A model generated the notes under the pieces. It searched no databases. It was not told the origin of the DNA and worked only from the letters and a program-made list of their open reading frames with translations. DNA of 64,000 bases, from assembly GCA_024707365.1 (NCBI GenBank), contig JANPZV010000005.1:310001-374000 (forward strand), written 5' to 3'. This document shows, piece by piece, positions 36,711-49,600 of this stretch; the first letter of the stretch is position 1; each line of letters opens with the position of its first letter. The stretch is from Terricaulis sp. (GTDB lineage Bacteria; Pseudomonadota; Alphaproteobacteria; Caulobacterales; Aquidulcibacteraceae). Both the position numbers and the translations under genes were made by a program.

Positions 36711-38526
36711 TTATTTCGCCGCCGCCAGCTCACGCGCGCCGCAGCCGGCCTTCGCTGTTTCCAAATAGAATTGGCGCATGTCCCAGGCGCCGGTGGGGCA
36801 GCGTTCGGCGCAGAGGCCGCAATGGAGGCAGACGTCTTCGTCTTTCACCATGACGCGCCCGGTTTTGAGCCCATCCTGCACGTAAAGATCCTGCTCGAGA
36901 TTGAGCGCGGGCGCGGTGAGGCGTTCGCGTAGATCCGTCTCTTCGCCGTTTTCGGTGAAGGTGATGCAATCCATCGGGCAGATATCGACGCAGGCGTCAC
37001 ACTCGATGCAGAGCGGGGCGGAAAACACGGTTTGCACATCGCAATTGAGGCAGCGCTGCGCCTCCTTATAGCCGAGCAGCGGGTCAAACCCCTTCTCGAC
37101 CTCGATCTTCACATTGCGCAGCGCCACGTCGGGCTCAACCAGCGGCACCTTATAGCGCTGATCGAGCGCGATATCGTTGTCATAGCTCCATTCATGGATG
37201 CCCATTTTGGTGGAGTGCATCACAACATCAGGCGGCGGGCGCTTGCGCACATCCTGCCCGTTTAAATAGAGATCGATCGAAACGGCGGCTTCGTGGCCAT
37301 GGGCGACGGCCCAGATGATGTTCTTGGGGCCGAAGGCGGCGTCACCGCCGAAGAACACGTTGGGCAGCGAGCTTTGGAAGGTGAGCTCATCCACCACCGG
37401 CATATCCCATTCGCCGAAGGCCATGCCGATGTCGCGCTCAATCCAGGGAAAGGCGTTTTCCTGGCCGACAGCCATCAGCACGTCGTCGCACTCAAAATGC
37501 ACGTCCGGCGCGCCGCTGGGGACGAGCTTTTTGCGGCCTTTTTCTTCGGCCCAATGCATCGGCGTGAACCACATGCCGGTGATCTTGCCGTTTGCGTGCG
37601 TGATCTCGCGCGGGTTGAGGAAATTGAGGATCGGGATGCCTTCGTGCTGCGCATCCTCTTTTTCCCAGGGGCTCGCCTTCATTTCATCGAAGCCGGAGCG
37701 GACGATGACTTTCACATCCTCCCCGCCGAGGCGCCGCGCCGTGCGGCAGCAATCCATCGCGGTGTTGCCCCCGCCGAGCACGATCACGCGCTTGCCGATT
37801 TTATCAACGTGCCCGAACGAGACGTTGGAGAGCCAATCGATGCCGATATGCACGTTGGCCTTGGCCTCCTGCTGGCCGGGCAAGCCAAGATCGCGCCCGC
37901 GCGGCGCGCCGGTGCCGACGAAGATGGCGTCATAATTTTTGGCGAGCAGCGCTTTCAGGGAATCGATGCGCTCCCCGAAATGCGTGACCGGCTCATAGTG
38001 CAGAACGTAGCCGACCTCTTCATCGATCACGCTTTCGGGCAGGCGGAAGCGCGGGATCTGGGTGCGGATCATGCCGCCGCCTTTTTGCTCGGCGTCGTAG
38101 ATGTGCACCTCATAGCCGAGCGGCAAGAGATCGCGCGCGACGGTGAGCGAGGCGGGGCCGGCGCCGATCAGCGCGATGCGCTTGCCGTTTTTGCTGACGG
38201 CTTTCGGCGGCAGGCGATCTGCGATCTCGCCTTTATTATCGGCGGCCACGCGCTTTAAGCGGCAGATGGCGACAGGCTCGGGCTTGGCCTCTTGCGATTC
38301 CTCAACACGCCCGCGGCGGCAGGCGGGCTCACACGGGCGATCGCGAGGTGCGGCCGAGGATGCCGGGAAACACGTTCGAGCGCCAATTGATCATGAACGC
38401 GTCGGCATAGCGGCCGGCGGCGATGAGGCGGATATATTCCGGCACCGGCGTATGCGCCGGGCACGCCCATTGGCAATCGACGACTTTGTGGAAGTAATCC
38501 GGCTGCGCGATATCCGTCGGCTTCAA
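36711..38526 (-). CDS. GltD-like NAD(P)-dependent flavoprotein with ferredoxin domains, one apparent frameshift
   Basis: 604 residues after correction. An N-terminal glutamate-synthase-small-subunit Fe-S domain (VDCQWACPAHTPVPEYIRL, then CDRPCEPACRRGRVEE) is followed by FAD and NAD(P)H Rossmann folds (IALIGAGPASLTVARDL; RVIVLGGGNTAMDCCRTARRLGG). The C-terminus has two 4Fe-4S ferredoxin motifs (CIECDACVDICPMDC; CLHCGLCAERCPTGA). The break is an extra base at 38344-38348. The start is TTG 38526, supported by AAGGAGG seven bases before. It suits electron transfer between NAD(P)H and ferredoxin, possibly for KorAB. Confidence 0.85.
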
Positions 38527-38628
38527 GACGCCGCCTCCTTGTGTTTCGCATAGCGTAGACCCAACCGGGCGCGGCGCAAGGCGCCGGGCTTGATTTGCGG
38601 CGCCAAGCGGCGCGATGGTCGCGCGCAC

Positions 38629-41600
38629 ATGAAAGACGGCTGGCATTTTTGGATCGATCGCGGCGGCACGTTTACGGACGTGGTCGCGCGCGGGCCTGGC
38701 GGATTGCAAATCGTTCGCAAATTGCTGAGCGTCAACCCGGAGCGCTATGCGGACGCGGCGCTGGAGGCGATCGGCCAAATCCTGGCCGAGCATGGCGGGG
38801 CGATCGCTTCGGTGAAGCTCGGCACCACGGTGGCGACTAATGCGCTCTTGGAGCGCAAGGGCGCGGATGTCGTGCTGGTGGTGACGCAAGGCTTTGGCGA
38901 TGCGCTGGAGATCGGCGTGCAGGCGCGGCCGGATATTTTTGCGCGGCATATCGTGAAGCCAGATCTGCTGCACCAGCGCGTGATCGAAGCGCGCGAGCGG
39001 GTGAGCGCCGAAGGCGCCGTGCTGACGCCGCTGGATGAAGCGCATGCGCGCGCGGCGCTGCAGGCGGCGTTTGACGACGGCTTCCGCGCGGCGGCGATCG
39101 CGTGTTTGCATGGCTGGGCCCATCCCGCGCACGAGGCGAAGCTGGCCGAGATCGCGCGCGCGATCGGCTTTACGCAGATTTCCGTGAGCCATGAGGTGAG
39201 CGGGCTGATCAAATTCATCCCGCGCGCGGATACGAGCGTGGCGGACGCCTACCTTTCCCCCGTGCTGCGGGCGTATGTGGATGAGGTGAGCGCGGGGCTC
39301 AGCGAAGCGCCGCTCTATTTCATGCAATCCAATGGCGGGCTGAGCGAGGCTTCGCGTTTTCGCGGGCGCGACGCGGTGCTTTCGGGGCCGGCGGGCGGGG
39401 TTGTGGGCATGGCGGCGGCGGCGGCGCGCGCAGGCTTTCGCCATGCGCTGGGCTTTGACATGGGCGGCACCTCAACGGACGTGACGCATTATGCCGGCGC
39501 GTTTGAGCGCACGCATGAGACGCTGGTGGCGGGCGTGCGCTTTGCCGCACCCATGCTTTCGATCCACACCGTGGCGGCGGGCGGCGGCTCGATTTGCTTT
39601 TTGACGGCGCGCGGCTGCGCGTTGGCCCGCACAGCGCGGGCGCCGATCCGGGCCCGGCCTCATATCGCCGCGGCGGGCCGCTGACGGTGACAGATTGCAA
39701 CGTGCTGCTGGGGCGCGTGCGGCCTGAGTTTTTTCCCGCGATCTTTGGCCCGAACGGGGATCAGCCGCTGGATCGCGATGCGGTGGCGCACAAATTCGCG
39801 GAATTATGCGCAGAGGTGGCGGCGGCGACGGGGCGCGTGCTGAGCGCGGAAGACGCCGCCGAAGGCTTTCTCACCATCGCCAACGAGCACATGGCCGAGG
39901 CGATCAAGAAGATTTCGATCCAGCGCGGCTATGATCCTTCCAATTATGCGCTCGTCGCGTTCGGCGGCGCGGGCGGGCAGCATGCGTGCGCGGTGGCCGA
40001 TGCTGTGGGCGTGGAGACGATCCTGCTGCATCCGCTGGCCGGCGTGCTGAGCGCGTGGGGCATGGGGCTGGCCGATGAGCGGGCGATCGCCGAGGAGACG
40101 GTGGAGCAAAAGCTTGGCGTTGCGCTGGATGCGGCGGCGGCGCGGCTTTCCGCTGCGGCGCGCGCGCGGCTGGGCGATGCTGCGCACGCGCGCGTGCGGC
40201 TGACGGCGCATCTGAAATATGAGGGCGCGGATACGCCGCTGCCGGTGATGCTGGGCGATGAGATGCGCGCTGGCTTTGAGGCAGAGCACCAGAAGCGCTT
40301 TGGCTTTGTTGATCCGGGCCGGGATATTGTGGTGGCGTCGCTGACGGCGGAGGCGGTGGTTGACGGTGCAACGCCTCTTGAAGCGGGCGCCGCACCATCC
40401 GCCGAATGGGATTACGGCGATCAGGTCGCGCTCTACGCGGAGGGCGCGTGGGACAAGTGCGCGTTTGTTTATAAGCGCAGCGCGCTGAAGCCGGGCTCTG
40501 ATTTTGATGGCCCCTGCCTGGTGCTCGAAGAAGGCGCGACGACCTATATTGCGCCCGGCTGGGAAGGCCGACGCACCGATAGAGGCGACCTCATTCTGCG
40601 CCGCACCGAAAAAATCGCCCGCGCCGCGATCGGCACGGCGGCGGATCCGATTTTGCTTGAAGTGTTCAACAATCGCTTCATGGGCGTGGCCGAAGAGATG
40701 GGCTTGGCGCTGCAGACCACGGCCTCCTCCGTGAACATCAAGGAGCGCTTGGATTTTTCCTGCGCGGTGTTTGATGAAGGCGGCGGGCTTGTGGCCAATG
40801 CGCCGCACATTCCGGTGCATCTTGGCTCCATGAGCGATAGCGTGCGCGAGATTATCCGCCAGCGCGGCGTCGGCATGCGCGATGGCGATGTCTATATGCT
40901 CAACGCGCCGCACGCGGGCGGCACGCATTTGCCCGACATCACTTTGATCGCGCCGGTGATGCTGGAGGGTGAAACCACGCCGGCATTCTTCACCGCTGCG
41001 CGCGGGCATCATGCGGATGTGGGCGGGATCACGCCAGGCTCGATGCCGCCGGATTCCACGCGTATCGAAGATGAAGGCGTGCTGATCGAAAATTTCCTGC
41101 TGATGCGCGAAGGGCGGCTGCTGGAAGCGGAAACGCGCGCGCTGTTCGCCTCCGGCCCCCACCCTGCGCGCAATGTGGATCGCAATATCGCCGATCTTAA
41201 AGCGCAGATCGCCGCCGTGGTGCGCGGCGGGGCGGAGCTGAAGCGGTTGGTTGCCCATTACGGGCGCGAGGGCGTGGCCGCGTATATGCGGCATGTGCAG
41301 GATAACGCTGAAGAGCAGATCAAGCGCGTGATCGATACGCTCAAGCCTGGGCGCTTTCGAGTTGAGATGGATCATGGCGCAATGATCGCCGTGGCGGTGA
41401 CGCCAGATCACGCCGCGCGCACGGTGACAATCGATTTCACCGGCACGAGCGCGCAAGGGCAAAACAATTTCAACGCGCCGCTGGCGATCACGCGCGCGGC
41501 GACGCTTTATGTGTTCCGCACTTTGGTGGCCGATCACATTCCGCTGAATGAAGGCTGCCTCAAGCTGCTCAACATCATCGTGCCGGAAGGCTCGATGCTG

Positions 41601-42182
41601 AATCCTGCGCGGGGCGCGGCGGTGGTGGCGGGCAATGTGGAGACAAGCCAGGCCGTGGTGGATTGCCTTTACGGCGCGTTCGGCGCGCTGGCGGCCAGCC
41701 AAGGCACGATGAACAATTTCACCTTCGGCGATGCGCGCCGGCAATATTATGAAACCATATGCGGCGGCTCAGGCGCGGGGCCCGGTTTTGCGGGCGCGGC
41801 CGTGGTGCAAACCCACATGACCAATTCGCGGCTGACTGACCCTGAGGTTTTGGAAACGCGCTTTCCAGTTTTGGTGGAAGAGTTTTCCGTGCGGCGCGGC
41901 TCGGGCGGGGCTGGCGCCTTCAAGGGCGGCGACGGCGCGGTGCGGCGCGTGCGCTTTTGCGAACCCATGCAGGCCGCGATTTTATCGAACCGGCGCAGCG
42001 TGGCGCCGTTCGGGCTCGAAGGCGGAGGCGATGGCGCGCCGGGCGCCAATCGCGTTGAGCGCGTGGGCGGCGCGGTGGAGATACTGGGCGCAACGGCGAA
42101 AACCGAGATGCAGGCGGGCGATGTGTTCGTGATCGAAACGCCCGGCGGCGGGGGATTTGGGAAGCGTGAGCGCGCGATATAG
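38629..42182 (+). CDS. oplAH: 5-oxoprolinase (ATP-hydrolysing), hydantoinase A/B fusion, one apparent frameshift
   Basis: 1184 residues after correction, normal for the OplAH type. HyuA half (1-640): [12 protein letters not shown] phosphate loop, [27 protein letters not shown]. HyuB half (about 650-1180): [38 protein letters not shown], and [15 protein letters not shown]. It hydrolyses 5-oxo-L-proline to glutamate with ATP. The break is in the T-run 39598-39602, one T short, between GGGSI and [20 protein letters not shown]-methylhydantoinases look similar, but the downstream DUF969/DUF979 genes favour 5-oxoproline. Confidence 0.9.
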
Positions 42183-42191
42183 GGGCTGATC

Positions 42192-42476
42192 TTGGCGGTT
42201 ATCATCACATGGATCATTTTGTGCTTTTGGCCGCGCTATGGCCTTCTGCTCGCGGTCGGCGCGATGGTTGCGGCGTACAATCTGATTGGCGCATTTACCG
42301 GCCCGGCCGAAAACACCAACCAACGGCTGTTTGAACTTGCCGTTGTGTTGCCGACTTTCCTTGTGATTGGCGCCGGTATTATCTCCGCGCGCCGATGGCT
42401 GCAAAACCGCAAAAAGACGTCGGACCTCGTGCCTGAAAACCCACAAGCGGCGCAATCATCAGAACCGAAAGCCTGA
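42192..42476 (+). CDS. Small two-helix membrane protein of the 5-oxoproline locus
   Basis: 94 residues starting at TTG 42192, no ATG being available. Two hydrophobic segments (about 3-32 and 45-64; the first has IITWIILCFWPRYGLLLAVGA in part), then a basic-polar tail. It lies 9 bp after oplAH and 3 bp before the DUF969 gene, so it belongs to the same transcript. No family recognised. It may be an accessory subunit of the predicted permease (inference). Confidence 0.65.
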   Translation: MAVIITWIILCFWPRYGLLLAVGAMVAAYNLIGAFTGPAENTNQRLFELAVVLPTFLVIGAGIISARRWLQNRKKTSDLVPENPQAAQSSEPKA

Positions 42477-42479
42477 GCC

Positions 42480-43199
42480 ATGCTGGTTTTACTTGGCATC
42501 GCCGTTGTGGTGTTTGGCTTTATCGTGCGCGCCAATCCGCTGCTTGTGGTGATGGCCGCGGCGCTCACCACTGGGCTTGCGGCGGCGTGGACGCCAGAGG
42601 CCGATCTTGCGGCGTACTACATGGCCGGGCGCGAAACGCTGGCGCAATTTGGAAAGGCGTTTAACGACGCGCGCTATATCAGCCTCACATGGATTTTGCT
42701 GGCGGCGATTGGCTTGCTGGAGCGCGCGGGCCTGCAGGAGCGCGCGCGCATTGCGATCGCCAAGGTGGAGGCCGCCACGGTGGGGCGGCTGCTTTGGGTG
42801 TATTTCGTGATCCGGCAGGCGAGCGCGGCGCTGGGGCTCACCTCGCTCGGCGGGCACGCGCAAATGGTGCGGCCGCTGGTGGCGCCGATGGCCGAAGGCG
42901 CGGCCGAAGCGCGCTTTGGCGCCCTGCCCGATCAGCAGCGCTTCCTTATTCGCAGCCACGCGGCGGCGGCGGATAATATCGGCCTCTTTTTCGGCGAGGA
43001 TATTTTCATCGCCATCGCCTCGATCCTTTTGATCAAGGGCTTTTTGGAAACCTACGGCATCATCGTTGAGCCGTTACAGCTTTCGATCTGGGCGATCCCG
43101 ACGGCGATCGCGGCGCTGATCATCCATAGCGTGCGGCTGTGGCTGCTGGATCGCGCGCTAAAACGTGCGTTAAGCGGCAAGGCGGAGGCCGGCGCATGA
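42480..43199 (+). CDS. DUF969 membrane protein
   Basis: 239 residues with about six hydrophobic segments. The family block WVYFVIRQASAALGLTSLGGHAQMVRPLVAPMAEGAAE and the later SHAAAADNIGLFFGEDIFIAIASILL identify DUF969, known to occur with DUF979 beside 5-oxoprolinase and pyroglutamyl peptidase genes and thought to be one half of a 5-oxoproline permease. Stop overlaps the DUF979 start by 4 bp. The transport role is inferred from context. Confidence 0.88.
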   Translation: MLVLLGIAVVVFGFIVRANPLLVVMAAALTTGLAAAWTPEADLAAYYMAGRETLAQFGKAFNDARYISLTWILLAAIGLLERAGLQERARIAIAKVEAATVGRLLWVYFVIRQASAALGLTSLGGHAQMVRPLVAPMAEGAAEARFGALPDQQRFLIRSHAAAADNIGLFFGEDIFIAIASILLIKGFLETYGIIVEPLQLSIWAIPTAIAALIIHSVRLWLLDRALKRALSGKAEAGA

Positions 43200-44155
43200 T
43201 CACGCTGCAACACGCTTACATCGTGGCCGGGCTTTTCTTTCTGGCGCTGGTTATTCTTTCGGCACGAGACGAGGCCAATCCGCGCCGGCTGCGCAATGCG
43301 ACGTTCTGGGGCTTGCTGGCGGCGAGCTTTCTCGGCGGGCATGCGTTTGGCGATCTGGGCAATGGCTTGCTGGCGCTTGGGCTTGTGGCGATCGCCGCGT
43401 TTGGGCTTGGGCAAGGCAAGCCGAAAACCACCAGCCAAGAAGAACGCCGCGCCAGCGCCGAGCGGAACGGCAATCTTTTGTTTCTGCCGGCGCTGATCAT
43501 ACCCGCCGCGGCTTTGATCGGCACGCTGCTGGTGAAGGAAACAAGCTGGGCGCAGAATTTCATAGAAGCCAAGAACGCAACGCTGATTTCGCTGACGCTG
43601 GGCGTGCTGATCGCCATTGGCGTGATCATGGCATGGCTCAAGCCGCCGCCGCTGGCGCCGCTGCAGGAAGGGCGGCGGCTGATGGATGCGGTGGGCTGGG
43701 CGGCGCTTTTGCCGCAAATGCTGGCGGCGCTGGGCGCTGTGTTTCTGGCGGCGGGCGTGGGCGAACAGGTGGGGCTGATCTTTGCGGAATATATCCCGCT
43801 CGACACCCGCACCATGGCGGTGGCGGCCTATTGCGTGGGCATGGCGCTGTTCACCATCATCATGGGCAATGCGTTCGCGGCGTTTCCGGTGATGACGGCG
43901 GCGGTGGGCTTGCCGTTTGTGATCCATGAACTCGGCGGCGATCCGGTGCGGGTGTGCGCCATCGGCATGCTGGCCGGCTTTTGCGGCACGCTGATGACGC
44001 CGATGGCGGCGAATTTTAATGTTGTGCCGGCCAATCTGCTGGAGCTGCCCGATCGCAAACAGGCGATCAACGGCGTGATCCGCGCGCAGATCCCAACCGC
44101 GCTGCCGCTGCTGATTGCGAACATTGTTCTGATGCGGTTCCTGGCCTTCCCATGA
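43196..44155 (+). CDS. DUF979 membrane protein
   Basis: 319 residues with nine or so transmembrane segments. DUF979 marks: GLFFLALVILSARDEANPRR, FWGLLAASFLGG, and the conserved IIMGNAFAAFPVMTAAVGLPFVI with GMLAGFCGTLMTPMAANFN, a permease-like core. The start at 43196 is inside the DUF969 stop (ATGA), and its own stop overlaps the DUF2891 start. With DUF969 it probably forms the importer for 5-oxoproline. Confidence 0.9.
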   Translation: MITLQHAYIVAGLFFLALVILSARDEANPRRLRNATFWGLLAASFLGGHAFGDLGNGLLALGLVAIAAFGLGQGKPKTTSQEERRASAERNGNLLFLPALIIPAAALIGTLLVKETSWAQNFIEAKNATLISLTLGVLIAIGVIMAWLKPPPLAPLQEGRRLMDAVGWAALLPQMLAALGAVFLAAGVGEQVGLIFAEYIPLDTRTMAVAAYCVGMALFTIIMGNAFAAFPVMTAAVGLPFVIHELGGDPVRVCAIGMLAGFCGTLMTPMAANFNVVPANLLELPDRKQAINGVIRAQIPTALPLLIANIVLMRFLAFP

Positions 44156-45141
44156 CCACACTCACCAAAGGCATCGCCGAGAAATTCGCTTCGCTCGCGC
44201 TCGCGCATGTGGAGCGGGAGTTTCCGTATAAGATGGATCACGTGATGGCGGGGCCGGCTGACGTGATCGGCCCGCGCGCGGCGCATCCGATTTTTTACGG
44301 CAGCTTTGATTGGCATTCGTGCGTGCACGGCTATTGGCTGCTGGCGCGGCTTTGGCGGCGCTATCCTGATTTGGCGCAGGCCGAGGCGATCGCTGCGCTG
44401 TTTGCGCGGGCGTTTACGGCGGAGAATGTCGCGGGCGAGTGCGCGTATCTGCGGCGGCCATGGTCGCGCGTGTTTGAGCGGCCATACGGCTGGGGCTGGC
44501 TGCTGGCGCTGGCGCATGAGCTGAACCAGCATGGGGCGCCGCATGGCGACACGCTCGCGCCGCTGGCGGAAATGTTCGCGCAGCGCTTCCGCAATTTTCT
44601 GCCGCTGTGCGATTATCCGGTGCGCACGGGCGTGCACACCTCAACCGCGTTCGCGCTGCGCATGGCGGCCGATTGGGCCGAAGCGCACGATCCGCTGCTT
44701 TATGCGCTGATGCGCGAAAAACTGCTGCACTGGCACGCGGGCGATGCGGATGCGGCGGCGTGGGAGCCGAGCCAGGATGATTTTTTATCGCCGACGCTGA
44801 TGACAGCCGAGGCGCTGCGGCGGGTGATGGATAAAGCTGCGTTTCGCAGCTGGTTTGCGGCGTATCTGCCGCGCGTTGCGCAAGCTGCGCCCGCTTCCCT
44901 CTTCACGCCCGCGCGGGTGAGCGATCGCAGCGACGGAAAAATCGCGCATCTGGATGGGCTGAATTTCTCACGCGCGTGGTGCTGGCGGGCGATCGCGGGC
45001 GCGCTGGACGATGAGGCCGCCGCCGGCGCCGCGCGCGCAGCCGCTGAGGCGCATATCACGGCGAGCCTGCCGCACGTGGCCGGCGATTATATGGGCGAGC
45101 ACTGGCTGGCGAGCTTTGCGCTGCTGGCGCTGGAGGCTTAG
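44152..45141 (+). CDS. DUF2891 family protein
   Basis: 329 residues, cytosolic, mostly helical. Family signature: HPIFYGSFDWHSCVHGYWLLARLWRRYP, RPYGWGWLLALAHEL, and later DGLNFSRAWCWRAIA with a C-terminal HWLASFALLAL. The (alpha/alpha)-toroid look recalls glycosidases and terpenoid enzymes. DUF2891 genes are often found next to DUF969/DUF979, so a role in 5-oxoproline or peptide-derived amino acid use is plausible but unproven. Its stop overlaps the convergent DUF4336 stop. Confidence 0.88.
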   Translation: MTTLTKGIAEKFASLALAHVEREFPYKMDHVMAGPADVIGPRAAHPIFYGSFDWHSCVHGYWLLARLWRRYPDLAQAEAIAALFARAFTAENVAGECAYLRRPWSRVFERPYGWGWLLALAHELNQHGAPHGDTLAPLAEMFAQRFRNFLPLCDYPVRTGVHTSTAFALRMAADWAEAHDPLLYALMREKLLHWHAGDADAAAWEPSQDDFLSPTLMTAEALRRVMDKAAFRSWFAAYLPRVAQAAPASLFTPARVSDRSDGKIAHLDGLNFSRAWCWRAIAGALDDEAAAGAARAAAEAHITASLPHVAGDYMGEHWLASFALLALEA

Positions 45142-45838: not shown

Positions 45839-46513
45839 CTAAAGAATCGAAAAGCGCAAGTCCGGCAGCCCATCGATTCCGCACGCCACCGCATCGCCGG
45901 GCACGATGGGCCCGACGCCAGCGGGCGTGCCGGAATAGATGAGATCGCCGGCGCGCAATTCCCAGGAGCGGGAGAGCGCGGCGATGATTTCCGGCACGCT
46001 CCAGATCATCTGCGCAAGATCGCCGTCTTGCTTGATCTCCCCGTTCACCGAAAGCCAGATGCGGCCCGCGAGCGGATGGGGGCCGCGCGCGATTGCGCCG
46101 ATGGGCGCAGATTGGTCAAAGGCTTTGCCAATATCCCACGGCGCGCCGGCTTTTTTCATTTCATTCTGCCGATCGCGGCGGGTGAGATCGACGCCCACGC
46201 CATAGCCGAACACGTGCGAAAGCGCCTTGGCCTCGGCAATCTCGCACCCGCTTTTGCCGATGGCGATCACCAGTTCGACCTCGAAATGCAGGTTTGACGT
46301 GTTTTGCGCGTAAGCGATGGCGGCGCCGGATTCGACCAACGCGTCGGCGGGCTTGGTGAAAAAGATTGGCGGCTCGCTTTTGGCGTCGCCGCCCATCTCG
46401 CGCACATGATCGGCGTAATTGCGGCCCACGCAGAAAATGCGGCGCACCGGAAAGCGCGCGCCCTCCCCGGCGATGGCGACGGAAACGGGCGGCGGCGGCT
46501 CAAAAGCAAACAT
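45839..46513 (-). CDS. Fumarylacetoacetate hydrolase-family protein
   Basis: 224 residues from ATG 46513. FAH fold: FCVGRNYADHVREMG, PIFFTKPADALVESG, HFEVELVIAIGKSG with the metal-binding Glu residues, GYGVGVDLTRRD, and LIYSGTPAGVGPI. Short members of this group are acylpyruvases (FAHD1-like), oxaloacetate decarboxylases or maleylpyruvate-type hydrolases; the tyrosine-pathway enzyme is longer. It is far from hpd, so no link to tyrosine is claimed. Divergent from the DUF2339 gene. Confidence 0.88.
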   Translation of the reverse strand: MFAFEPPPPVSVAIAGEGARFPVRRIFCVGRNYADHVREMGGDAKSEPPIFFTKPADALVESGAAIAYAQNTSNLHFEVELVIAIGKSGCEIAEAKALSHVFGYGVGVDLTRRDRQNEMKKAGAPWDIGKAFDQSAPIGAIARGPHPLAGRIWLSVNGEIKQDGDLAQMIWSVPEIIAALSRSWELRAGDLIYSGTPAGVGPIVPGDAVACGIDGLPDLRFSIL

Positions 46514-46633
46514 GCCCGCATTCAACACAGGTGCGCGGGCGGCGCAAACTCCCCTTTGAGGCGAACCGCGCAGGTGCAGGGGCTTGCGCCAGCGCGGCGG
46601 GCGCGGAAAGCTTCCCACGCCAAGGCGAGACTC

Positions 46634-49600
46634 ATGGAATGGATCCTCATCCTGGCGCTCGCCTTCTGGGTGTGGCGGCAGGGGCGGCGCATCGAAGCGC
46701 TGCAGCGCAGAATAGAAACGCTTGAATTGCGTGAGCCTTCGCCGGCGCAGGCGGCGGCGGACGTGCTGCTGCTGGATACGCCGCTGCCGCAAGCCTCGAA
46801 TGATGATGAGGCTTTTGAGATCGAGGAAGATGGCCCGGCCGCGCCCGCGCCTGCGGATGCGCTGATTTTAGCCGCGCCGCCGCCGCCGCGCGAAGAAGAG
46901 CCGCTGCTGCTGACTGAAGCCTTGCCAGAGCCCGCGCCGCAGCGCCGGCGCCAGCTTGAGCAATGGCTGGCGGAGAACGGGCTTGCCTGGATGGGCGGCG
47001 GCGCGTTTGCGCTGGGCGGCATCATGCTGGTGGCGATCGCCGCGCAGCAAAGCTGGTTTAGCCCGCTTGTGCGTTTGTATTGCGCGCTGGCGCTGGGCGC
47101 GGGGCTGATTGGCGCGAGCGAATGGCTCTTGCGCCGGCCCGGCGCGCACAGGCTGGCCGCCGCGTTGATCGCAGGCGCGGGCGCGGCGACATTTTACGCG
47201 ACGATCTGGGCGGGCCATGCGCTTTACGGCTTTATCGGCGCGGGCGCGGCGGTGTGGGCGCTTTTTCTGTGCGCGCTGGTGTTCATGGCGCTGGCGTTGC
47301 GGCATGGGCAGGCGCTGGCGGTGATGGCGATCTTCGCGGCGTTCATGGCGCCGGCGCTGGCGGGCGGCGCGCTGCCGGGCGTGAGCGCGCTGCTTTATCT
47401 CGGCGCTGTGGCGGCGGCGGGGTTTGCAGTGGCGGCGCTGCGGCGCTGGGCGTGGGCGGGCGTTGCAAGCTTGCTTTCGCTCTATTTCTGGTTTGCCGCA
47501 GCGATAGCGGGCGAGGATGTGCGCCAAGGCTTGGCGCTAGCCGCGTTCGCGGCGATCGGCGGGGCGGCGATGAGCTTGCGCAAACCGCGCGGCGCGGAAG
47601 AGGCCGGCGCGCTGAACTGGGCGCGGGTGCAGAAGCTTGGGCCGGCCGTGGCGATCTCGATCTCCAGCGTGGCGCTGCTTTGGGTTTGGGGCGCGGCGGC
47701 GGCTTCACCGCAAGGCGCGGTGGCGGGGCCGGCTTGGGTTGGCGCGATGCTGGTGGCGCTGGCGGCGGGCGCGGTGCGCGCGCGTTTGGCGGCGCCGGCT
47801 GTGCTGGCGGTGGCGATCGGGGCGCTGGTGGCGGGCTTCATGCTTTATCTCGGCGTGCGCAGCTACACGCTGCCGCCGAGCCTTTATCCGTTCATGCTGT
47901 TCGCCGCCGGCATTGTGGCTGCGGCGGCGATGAATGCGCGGCCGCATCGGCGCGAGCGCGCGACGCTTTCCATCGCCGGCGCGGCGGGCGCTGGCCTGCT
48001 GACGCTGCTTGCCGCATTCAGCGTGCCCGATTGGCATGGCATTGCGGCGTGGACGCCGCTGTTTCTTGGCGCCGCCGCGCTGCTGAGCTTGGCCGCTGTG
48101 CAAGCGCAAAGCGTGGCGCAGCCGCGCGCGAGCGCGGCGGTAGATGCGTGGGCGGTTGCAGGCGCGGCGCTGGCGTTTGCTGGTGTTGAATCGCTTGTGG
48201 GCGCGGAATGGCGCACGGCGGCGCATGCGGGGCTCGCGTTTGGCTTTGCGTTTGCGCTGAACGCACGCGGCTGGCGCGCGCTGGCATGGGCGGCGCTTGG
48301 CGCTGGCGCGCTGGCGCTGGCGCATGGATTTTCCGACGCGACCGTGGGCGGCGCGATGGCGGGCGGCTTGCTGCAAGCGCTGACCACGCTGGGGCTCGCG
48401 GCGGGCTTGCTGTTTGCGGCGTCGTGGATCGCTGCGAAGGCGCGCACGCCCTCTTCCATCAGCGAGGCGCTGAGCGCGGGCGCAATCATCCTGGCGCTGC
48501 TGGGCGTTTATCTGCTGCTGCGCTGGATCGCGGCGGGCGGCGCGGGCGCGCCGCTTCGATCGCTTTACGGAAGCTGCTTTGCGCGGCTGCGCGCTGATGG
48601 CCGGCGCACACATGGCGCTGGCGCGGCCACGGCAAAAACTGGGGCGCATCGGCGCCTGGCGCGGACATGTGCTGATGGCGCTGGGGGTTTTGCAAATCGC
48701 GCTGAGCAATGGGCTGATGCTCAATCCGTGGTGGGGCCCCAGCCCCGCGGCGATTGGCGGGCCGGCGCTGTTTAACGCGCTGGCGCTTGGCTTTGCGGCG
48801 CCGGCGGCTTTTGCTTTTCTTCGCAGCGCGGCGGCTTTATGCGCATCAGCGCGAACCGGCGCGCGCTTATGCGGGCGCGGGCGCGTTGATGGCGCTGGTG
48901 TGGGCGGCGCTCGAAATCCGCCGCGCGTTTCATGGCGCGGAAATGGCCGCGCATTTTGTGTTCAACACAGAGAGCGCCGCGTATGGCGTGCTGTTTCTCA
49001 GCGCGGGCGTGCTCAACGCCGCGTTCGCGCAACGCTGGCGCGGGCGCGTGGGCGCGGATTTACGCGCGATCAGCGCGGGCCTCGCCTGGGGCGCGATGGC
49101 GCTGGGCGGGCTCTTGCTGCTGCTGAGCTTGATCGGCGGCTGGGATCGCGGCGCGGGCACGGGCTTTGCGCTTGTGCTGGCGCTGCTGGCGGGCGCTGTG
49201 CTGGCGCTGACGCAAGGCGCGCTGATCAGCAAAAGCGAGAGCTTTGAAGCGCCGCGCTTTGCGGCCGCGGCGCTGGCGTGCGTGCTGGTGTGGAGCGCGG
49301 GGCATGGCGCGATCCATTGGGCGCGGCTGGGCGGGCTTGAAGGCATGGCGCATGCGCTGTGGCCGCTGGCGCTGACGCTGGCGGGCGCGGCGCGGGCGCG
49401 GCGCAGCTTGCGGCGCGATGCCTGGCGCGCATACCGGCACGATCTGCAAGCGATCTGGGCGAGCGCGGCATGGCCTGCGAGCGCGGTTGCGGCGCTGGGG
49501 CTATGGGGCTTTGCCAATCCCTGGTGGGGTTTGGGCAGCGCGGGAAATTGGGGCGCGTCGCTTGCAGCGGTGGCCCTATGCGGCGCGGGCGCGTGGATGA

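Follow-up and report, generated by a model that had tools for sequence, protein, structure and literature searches.

Does a bacterial locus in which a fused 5-oxoprolinase gene, oplAH, is followed by genes of the DUF969, DUF979 and DUF2891 families serve the uptake and use of 5-oxoproline (pyroglutamate), and does a small membrane protein encoded between the enzyme and DUF969 belong to the same pathway? The locus lies at 38629-45141 of a 64,000-nucleotide (nt) stretch of DNA from Terricaulis sp., called the window here (positions 310001-374000 of contig C5 in a genome, G000, of 3.4 Mb, 8 contigs and 89.7% completeness). Niehaus is said to have described, in 2017, PxpABC 5-oxoprolinase operons with DUF969/DUF979, and the original prediction held that in the window the fused enzyme takes the place of PxpABC. 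It is very probable, from the analysis that follows, that the locus is a 5-oxoproline uptake and use operon and that the small membrane protein stands generally outside the pathway.

The replacement of PxpABC by the fused enzyme was borne out by the way in which the two enzymes exclude each other. A survey was made of 150 related genomes, the window's own included; these are drafts, and the counts of presence and absence depend on their completeness. With OplAH counted only at an identity of at least 51% (matches at 34% or below were excluded), the fused enzyme was found in 65 of the 150 genomes and PxpA (PF03746) in 36, while none had both (Fisher p = 2.7e-11, with no correction for relatedness). 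Families f2, f4 and f5 each hold genomes with OplAH and genomes with PxpA, never both in one, and PxpA gave no match in the window genome at its 89.7% completeness. DUF969 was present in 42 of the 150 genomes, 41 of them with OplAH and none with PxpA; the lone genome without a counted OplAH (G028) has a completeness of 57% and shows a fragment of oplAH adjoining DUF969. Fused OplAH without DUF969 was observed in G045, in G089 and in genomes of f2, f4 and f5, where another 5-oxoproline uptake system, or the disposal of internal 5-oxoproline only, would be expected.

In the window the genes of the locus all lie on the + strand. The enzyme is encoded in two parts, an N part (38629..39684) bearing Hydant_A_N and the first half of Hydantoinase_A, and a C part (39594..42182) bearing the remainder of Hydantoinase_A and Hydantoinase_B (expect value, E, 1.5e-191); there follow a 94-codon open reading frame (ORF; 42192..42476), the presumed 5-oxoproline permease halves DUF969 (42480..43199; PF06149, E 9.7e-82) and DUF979 (43196..44155; PF06166, E 3.4e-115), and DUF2891 (44152..45141; PF11199, E 3.7e-123). 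All the named families were confirmed by Pfam, and the ORF coordinates agree with the predicted gene order, with the 9-nt gap and with the ATGA overlaps that join DUF969 to DUF979 and DUF979 to DUF2891. The TTG start of the small ORF stands 9 nt past the oplAH stop (42182), and its end is 3 nt ahead of the DUF969 ATG. The order oplAH-DUF969-DUF979-DUF2891 exceeds chance, being conserved in relatives. PF06149 and PF06166 are adjacent in the window and in 41 related loci; oplAH adjoins the pair in all 25 loci of the same taxonomic family (one a fragment), with DUF2891 following in 24 and one locus cut by a contig end, and in 4 of the 16 loci of family f3. The four-gene order recurs in Hyphomonadaceae, Brevundimonas and Sphingomonadales, the named genera with oplAH beside DUF969-DUF979 being Brevundimonas, Sphingomonas, Sphingobium, Tsuneonella, Qipengyuania and Sphingopyxis.

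Named DUF969 loci were also considered, the best 80 of 572 confirmed ones being used; several of these duplicate records among the related-genome loci, and some end at contig ends, where absences are weak. Among these 80, of which the closest DUF969 proteins come from metagenome-assembled genomes labelled Alphaproteobacteria or Hyphomonadaceae, OplAH was encoded in the fetched DNA of 28 loci (adjacent in 27 and 7.5 kb off in one), PxpA/PxpC in 12 and both in none. The 12 loci support the claim that DUF969/DUF979 are neighbours of Pxp enzymes. DUF2891 was found with 26 of the 28 OplAH loci and with 0 of the 12 Pxp loci. The rest had DUF979 and DUF2891 without either enzyme (35 loci), DUF979 alone (4) or none of these (1), and reading the ORFs of the enzyme-free loci by eye gave nothing firm.

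The locus thus resembles PxpABC operons in that DUF969/DUF979 adjoin a 5-oxoprolinase, and differs from them in that the enzyme is the unrelated fused OplAH and in the presence of DUF2891. It resembles the eukaryote-type OplAH/OXP1 in having, in relatives, the Hydantoinase A and B regions on one chain, together with ATP-binding motifs; this likeness is one of domains and motifs, and the window oplAH, unlike the eukaryote-type enzymes, is frameshifted in this assembly. The closest parallel in the literature is cj0552-cj0554 of Campylobacter jejuni, where the three DUF genes have an identical order and where CJ0554 is 42% identical to the window DUF2891. These genes are glutamine-responsive, and a cj0552-4 mutant did not grow on 5-oxoproline as nitrogen source, a result for which the authors' own term is preliminary (PMC12795558). 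The C. jejuni operon, as described in the available text, differs from that of the window in being without a fused OplAH and in having no small gene named (PMC12795558). DUF979 has been placed in the ion transporter superfamily, and a DUF969-DUF979 complex has been predicted (PMC11467057). In Pontixanthobacter, clusters of hydantoinase B/oxoprolinase, DUF969, DUF979 and DUF2891 co-occur with halotolerance (PMC10040529), and the gene grouping is therefore already in print, although not as an operon in the text available. The pxpTABC genes of Corynebacterium likewise pair a 5-oxoproline transporter with a 5-oxoprolinase, but these are an APC-type transporter, PxpT, and PxpABC, and the text of the paper nowhere uses the term DUF (PMC13274462).

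The prediction of a single fused oplAH held for the domains and failed for the reading frame. Hydant_A_N, Hydantoinase_A and Hydantoinase_B are all present across the two parts (Pfam), and the translations contain the motifs DxGGTxTD, DxGGT and GxxPGP (DRGGTFTD and DMGGTSTD in the N part, the GADPGP adenosine motif in the C part); DxGGTxTD/DxGGT are named as phosphate-binding motifs, and GxxPGP is also named, in PMC8453981. Over its 500-amino-acid Hydantoinase_B part, the C part shares 82% identity with the relative G005, whose oplAH is intact. There is no one open frame, however, as the enzyme frame departs from the N part near 39600 and resumes there in the C part. A single oplAH ORF of 1188-1294 codons was found in 23 of the 29 related loci in which oplAH adjoins DUF969; of the other six, three are interrupted (L031, L041, L047), two are cut by a contig end (L032, L054) and one is a fragment (L050). 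The break lies at a T5 run, and all 26 relatives listed in a tblastn comparison stay in frame at this site. Divergent to oplAH is a gene for a PreT-like oxidoreductase (Pyr_redox_2 and 4Fe-4S; 36711-38249, - strand) whose N part, within 38329-38553 (-), is out of frame; in 11 of the 11 relatives in which both parts were found, they are spaced by a whole number of codons. Because the break falls in a homopolymer, the 26 relatives remain in frame and the PreT-like gene is likewise out of frame, the oplAH break is most likely an assembly error. A programmed frameshift was considered and ruled out, since the 26 relatives hold the frame at the site. In a large membrane-protein frame at 46304-48775 (+), the last part becomes arginine-rich nonsense near 48500, the pattern expected of a further frameshift.

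On the proposed mechanism, DUF969 and DUF979 would together form a permease that imports 5-oxoproline, the fused ATP-dependent OplAH would open the 5-oxoproline ring to give glutamate, and DUF2891 may assist the pathway as a soluble enzyme or binding protein. We infer substrate and transport in this organism from the gene neighbours, the exclusion of PxpA and the C. jejuni literature. Several points weigh against the assignment. It draws on gene neighbours and on exclusion; the growth test in C. jejuni is preliminary and the mutant was missing the whole operon (PMC12795558); 24 of the 65 genomes with OplAH have no DUF969; neither enzyme is encoded in the fetched DNA of the 35 DUF969-DUF979-DUF2891 loci noted among the best 80 of 572; the frameshift means that the enzyme could be dead here; and the best solved match of the enzyme, 7hk5, a single chain of 1288 residues, is labelled an N-methylhydantoinase.

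This last match, together with the fact that the HyuA/HyuB superfamily takes in hydantoinases, caprolactamase and carboxylases (PMC8453981), would fit an enzyme acting on hydantoin or another lactam, with an operon serving that compound instead. Such a substrate is unlikely given the fused architecture, which the same paper sets against unfused hydantoinases, the strict alternation of OplAH with PxpA, and the association with the DUF969/DUF979 genes that are linked to 5-oxoproline in C. jejuni. The single frameshift near 39600 could also be taken to mean that this organism's oplAH is a pseudogene and that the operon has ceased to function. Apart from the one break, which falls in a homopolymer, both parts are open, and the adjacent PreT-like gene has lost its frame as well, unlike its counterparts in the 11 relatives; moreover, oplAH is interrupted in relatives G001 (about 30 nt beyond the window's site), G014 and G023 (elsewhere than the window's site), so that sequencing error is the simpler cause and loss of the gene is improbable. 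A 5-oxoproline operon therefore remains the preferred reading. It is a conserved variation on known 5-oxoproline loci, a bacterial operon that links a eukaryote-type 5-oxoprolinase with the DUF969/DUF979 permease and with DUF2891; as it also alternates cleanly with PxpA, what DUF969, DUF979 and DUF2891 do can be tested directly in cultures of Brevundimonas or Sphingobium.

The view that DUF2891 has no assigned role is out of date, since the structure of CJ0554 is available (8IEU) and loss of the operon abolishes use of 5-oxoproline (PMC12795558). The window protein matches the solved CJ0554 at 278 bits. An AlphaFold model built from 32 sequences (predicted local distance difference test, pLDDT, 91) superposes on 8IEU with Z 43.9 and a root-mean-square deviation (rmsd) of 1.6 over 325 aligned residues at 42% identity, and the next structural matches are other (alpha/alpha) toroids, among them cellobiose 2-epimerase (5zig, Z 16.6) and, at Z about 16, unsaturated glucuronyl hydrolases. 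Conservation in 97% or more of the 32 rows extends to 30 polar or aromatic residues, including H45, D53, H55, C57, H59, H162, H266, H301 and H317, and it is likely that the protein has an enzymatic pocket. That it might be a 5-oxoproline racemase is a guess, based on the resemblance of the model to AGE-type epimerases (5zig, rmsd 3.6, 271 aligned, 10% identity) and on the conserved H266 and H317; counting against this guess, the matches at Z 13-16 also hold unsaturated glucuronyl hydrolases and complement thioester domains. A literature search on 8IEU/8IEV found only unrelated papers.

The 94-residue protein encoded between oplAH and DUF969 has two hydrophobic segments, and folded alone it gives two helices (pLDDT 69). 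It was correctly described as lying outside recognised families: there was no match above the curated cut-off in Pfam or NCBIfam and none at E 0.01 in PADLOC, with only weak matches in PHROGs. TadE, DUF202, PspM and two PHROGs were dropped as candidates, being below cut-off or at E 0.036 or above. The suggestion that this protein is a missing component of the pathway did not survive comparison with related loci. By tblastn the small gene was found in none of the 41 related DUF969 loci (one of which, L004, spans 3.6 kb only), and its homologues, described below, stand beside unrelated genes. The distance from the oplAH stop to the DUF969 start is 8-31 nt in 24 of the 25 same-family relatives (in L050 the stop was not located), mostly a G-rich stretch and the start codon, and it is at most 158 nt, too short for the small gene, in the 27 adjacent named loci, at least 10 of which coincide with records among the 41. 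An absence from related loci is the outcome that the original prediction had itself named as counting against it. The TAG-GGGC of the relatives' junction also precedes the window small gene; the extra DNA therefore seems, judging by the junctions, to sit between this TAG-GGGC site and the DUF969 start.

It is accordingly very unlikely that the protein is a third component of the DUF969/DUF979 permease, even though its gene is co-directional with its neighbours at the short distances given above and its hydrophobic helices point to a membrane protein. To the absence from the 41 loci and the lack of room in the named loci, which are partly the same records, can be added that the C. jejuni operon as described comprises three DUF genes only (PMC12795558). 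That the 94-residue ORF is chance, non-coding DNA might be suggested by its TTG start, by its GC content of 56% as against 63-67% in the surrounding genes and by its occurrence at this site in G000 only, but the homology to a family of small proteins extends across both helices and goes far beyond shuffled and natural controls, which makes chance extremely improbable. The protein is instead best placed in a dispersed, lineage-restricted gene family that is generally outside the 5-oxoproline pathway. The false lead of a missing component thus gives way to an unusual family of genes for small membrane proteins, specific to the lineage and with neighbours that vary between genomes, and this roaming family is the more novel part of the locus.

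A search with the small protein in 60 genomes of the organism's family gave, beyond itself, two weak matches, in G054 (E 0.0054) and in G001 (28% identity, E 2.7e-4). The former, inside a 239-residue frame, was dropped. The G001 homologue sits between carboxyl transferase and biotin carboxylase genes, and searches from this protein and its neighbour recovered the family. A profile of 13 members made without the window protein scored that protein at 34.6 bits, over both helices, while the best of 300 hydropathy-keeping shuffles reached 14.2 bits and the best of 1,363 natural two-transmembrane pieces (1.6 Mb) reached 9.8. An enlarged profile, which holds the window protein and 14 other members and so matches these by construction, was used in an order-wide scan of 299 genomes with at most 16 candidates scored per genome; 24 of these genomes matched at E 0.001 or below. 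At E 2e-7 or below there were 20, of which 18 belong to the genus (the window's own included) and 2 to neighbouring genera. A scan of viral contigs with family profile A1 gave 213 pattern matches and no relative, and no literature on this type of small membrane protein was found.

The searches yielded 26 distinct members. For 15 of them, spread over 12 genomes, the gene is flanked by those for carboxyl transferase and biotin carboxylase, and the other 11 are situated at other sites; one more match in G001 (C135:48652), which has no locus, was left out of this count. The 11 comprise members after genes for aspartate-semialdehyde dehydrogenase (G029), adenylosuccinate synthetase (G021, G025), PPK2 (G048) and thiolase (G025), one downstream of folD in G024, a weak match close to a phage integrase in G022 and one close to a protein without a Pfam match in G038, as well as members in G002 and G019 C3 and the window copy after oplAH. 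The match to the profile starts 6-30 nt past the upstream stop in 12 of the 26 members. The copy next to asd in G029 and the carboxylase-spacer copy in G001 share 66% identity. The window genome has one copy in all, the only other match to the profile including the window protein being at 12.4 bits (E 0.47). From the varied neighbours and this single oplAH-adjacent copy it follows that the neighbours of the family differ between genomes, the site in the 5-oxoproline operon being seen in G000 only. Two observations temper this placement of the small protein: the first-look filter of one profile search missed the window copy in its own genome, so that such absences are not exhaustive, and the protein is without the family's C-terminal RAExAARE stretch (KELDxEMxRIRAExAARE). 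The KELDxEMxRIRAExAARE stretch is also missing in rows G024 C32, G025 C49, G020 and G002.

The family consists of fast-changing two-helix membrane proteins, largely confined to the genus and encoded close behind various metabolic genes. In the window one copy lies in the gap that separates oplAH from DUF969, and we infer both its arrival and its role there. It is possible, and suggested here only tentatively, that a dispersing two-helix mini-gene family repeatedly enters the stop-to-start gaps after metabolic genes in one lineage, taking over the existing ribosome-binding site and roaming without a recognised mobile element, and that its members are either selfish or recruited as local membrane adaptors for the neighbouring enzyme or permease. 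The carboxylase genes of the window itself (20083-18593 and 18390 onward, - strand) are separated by a spacer of about 200 nt without a small gene. By eye, this spacer looks rich in GC palindromes.

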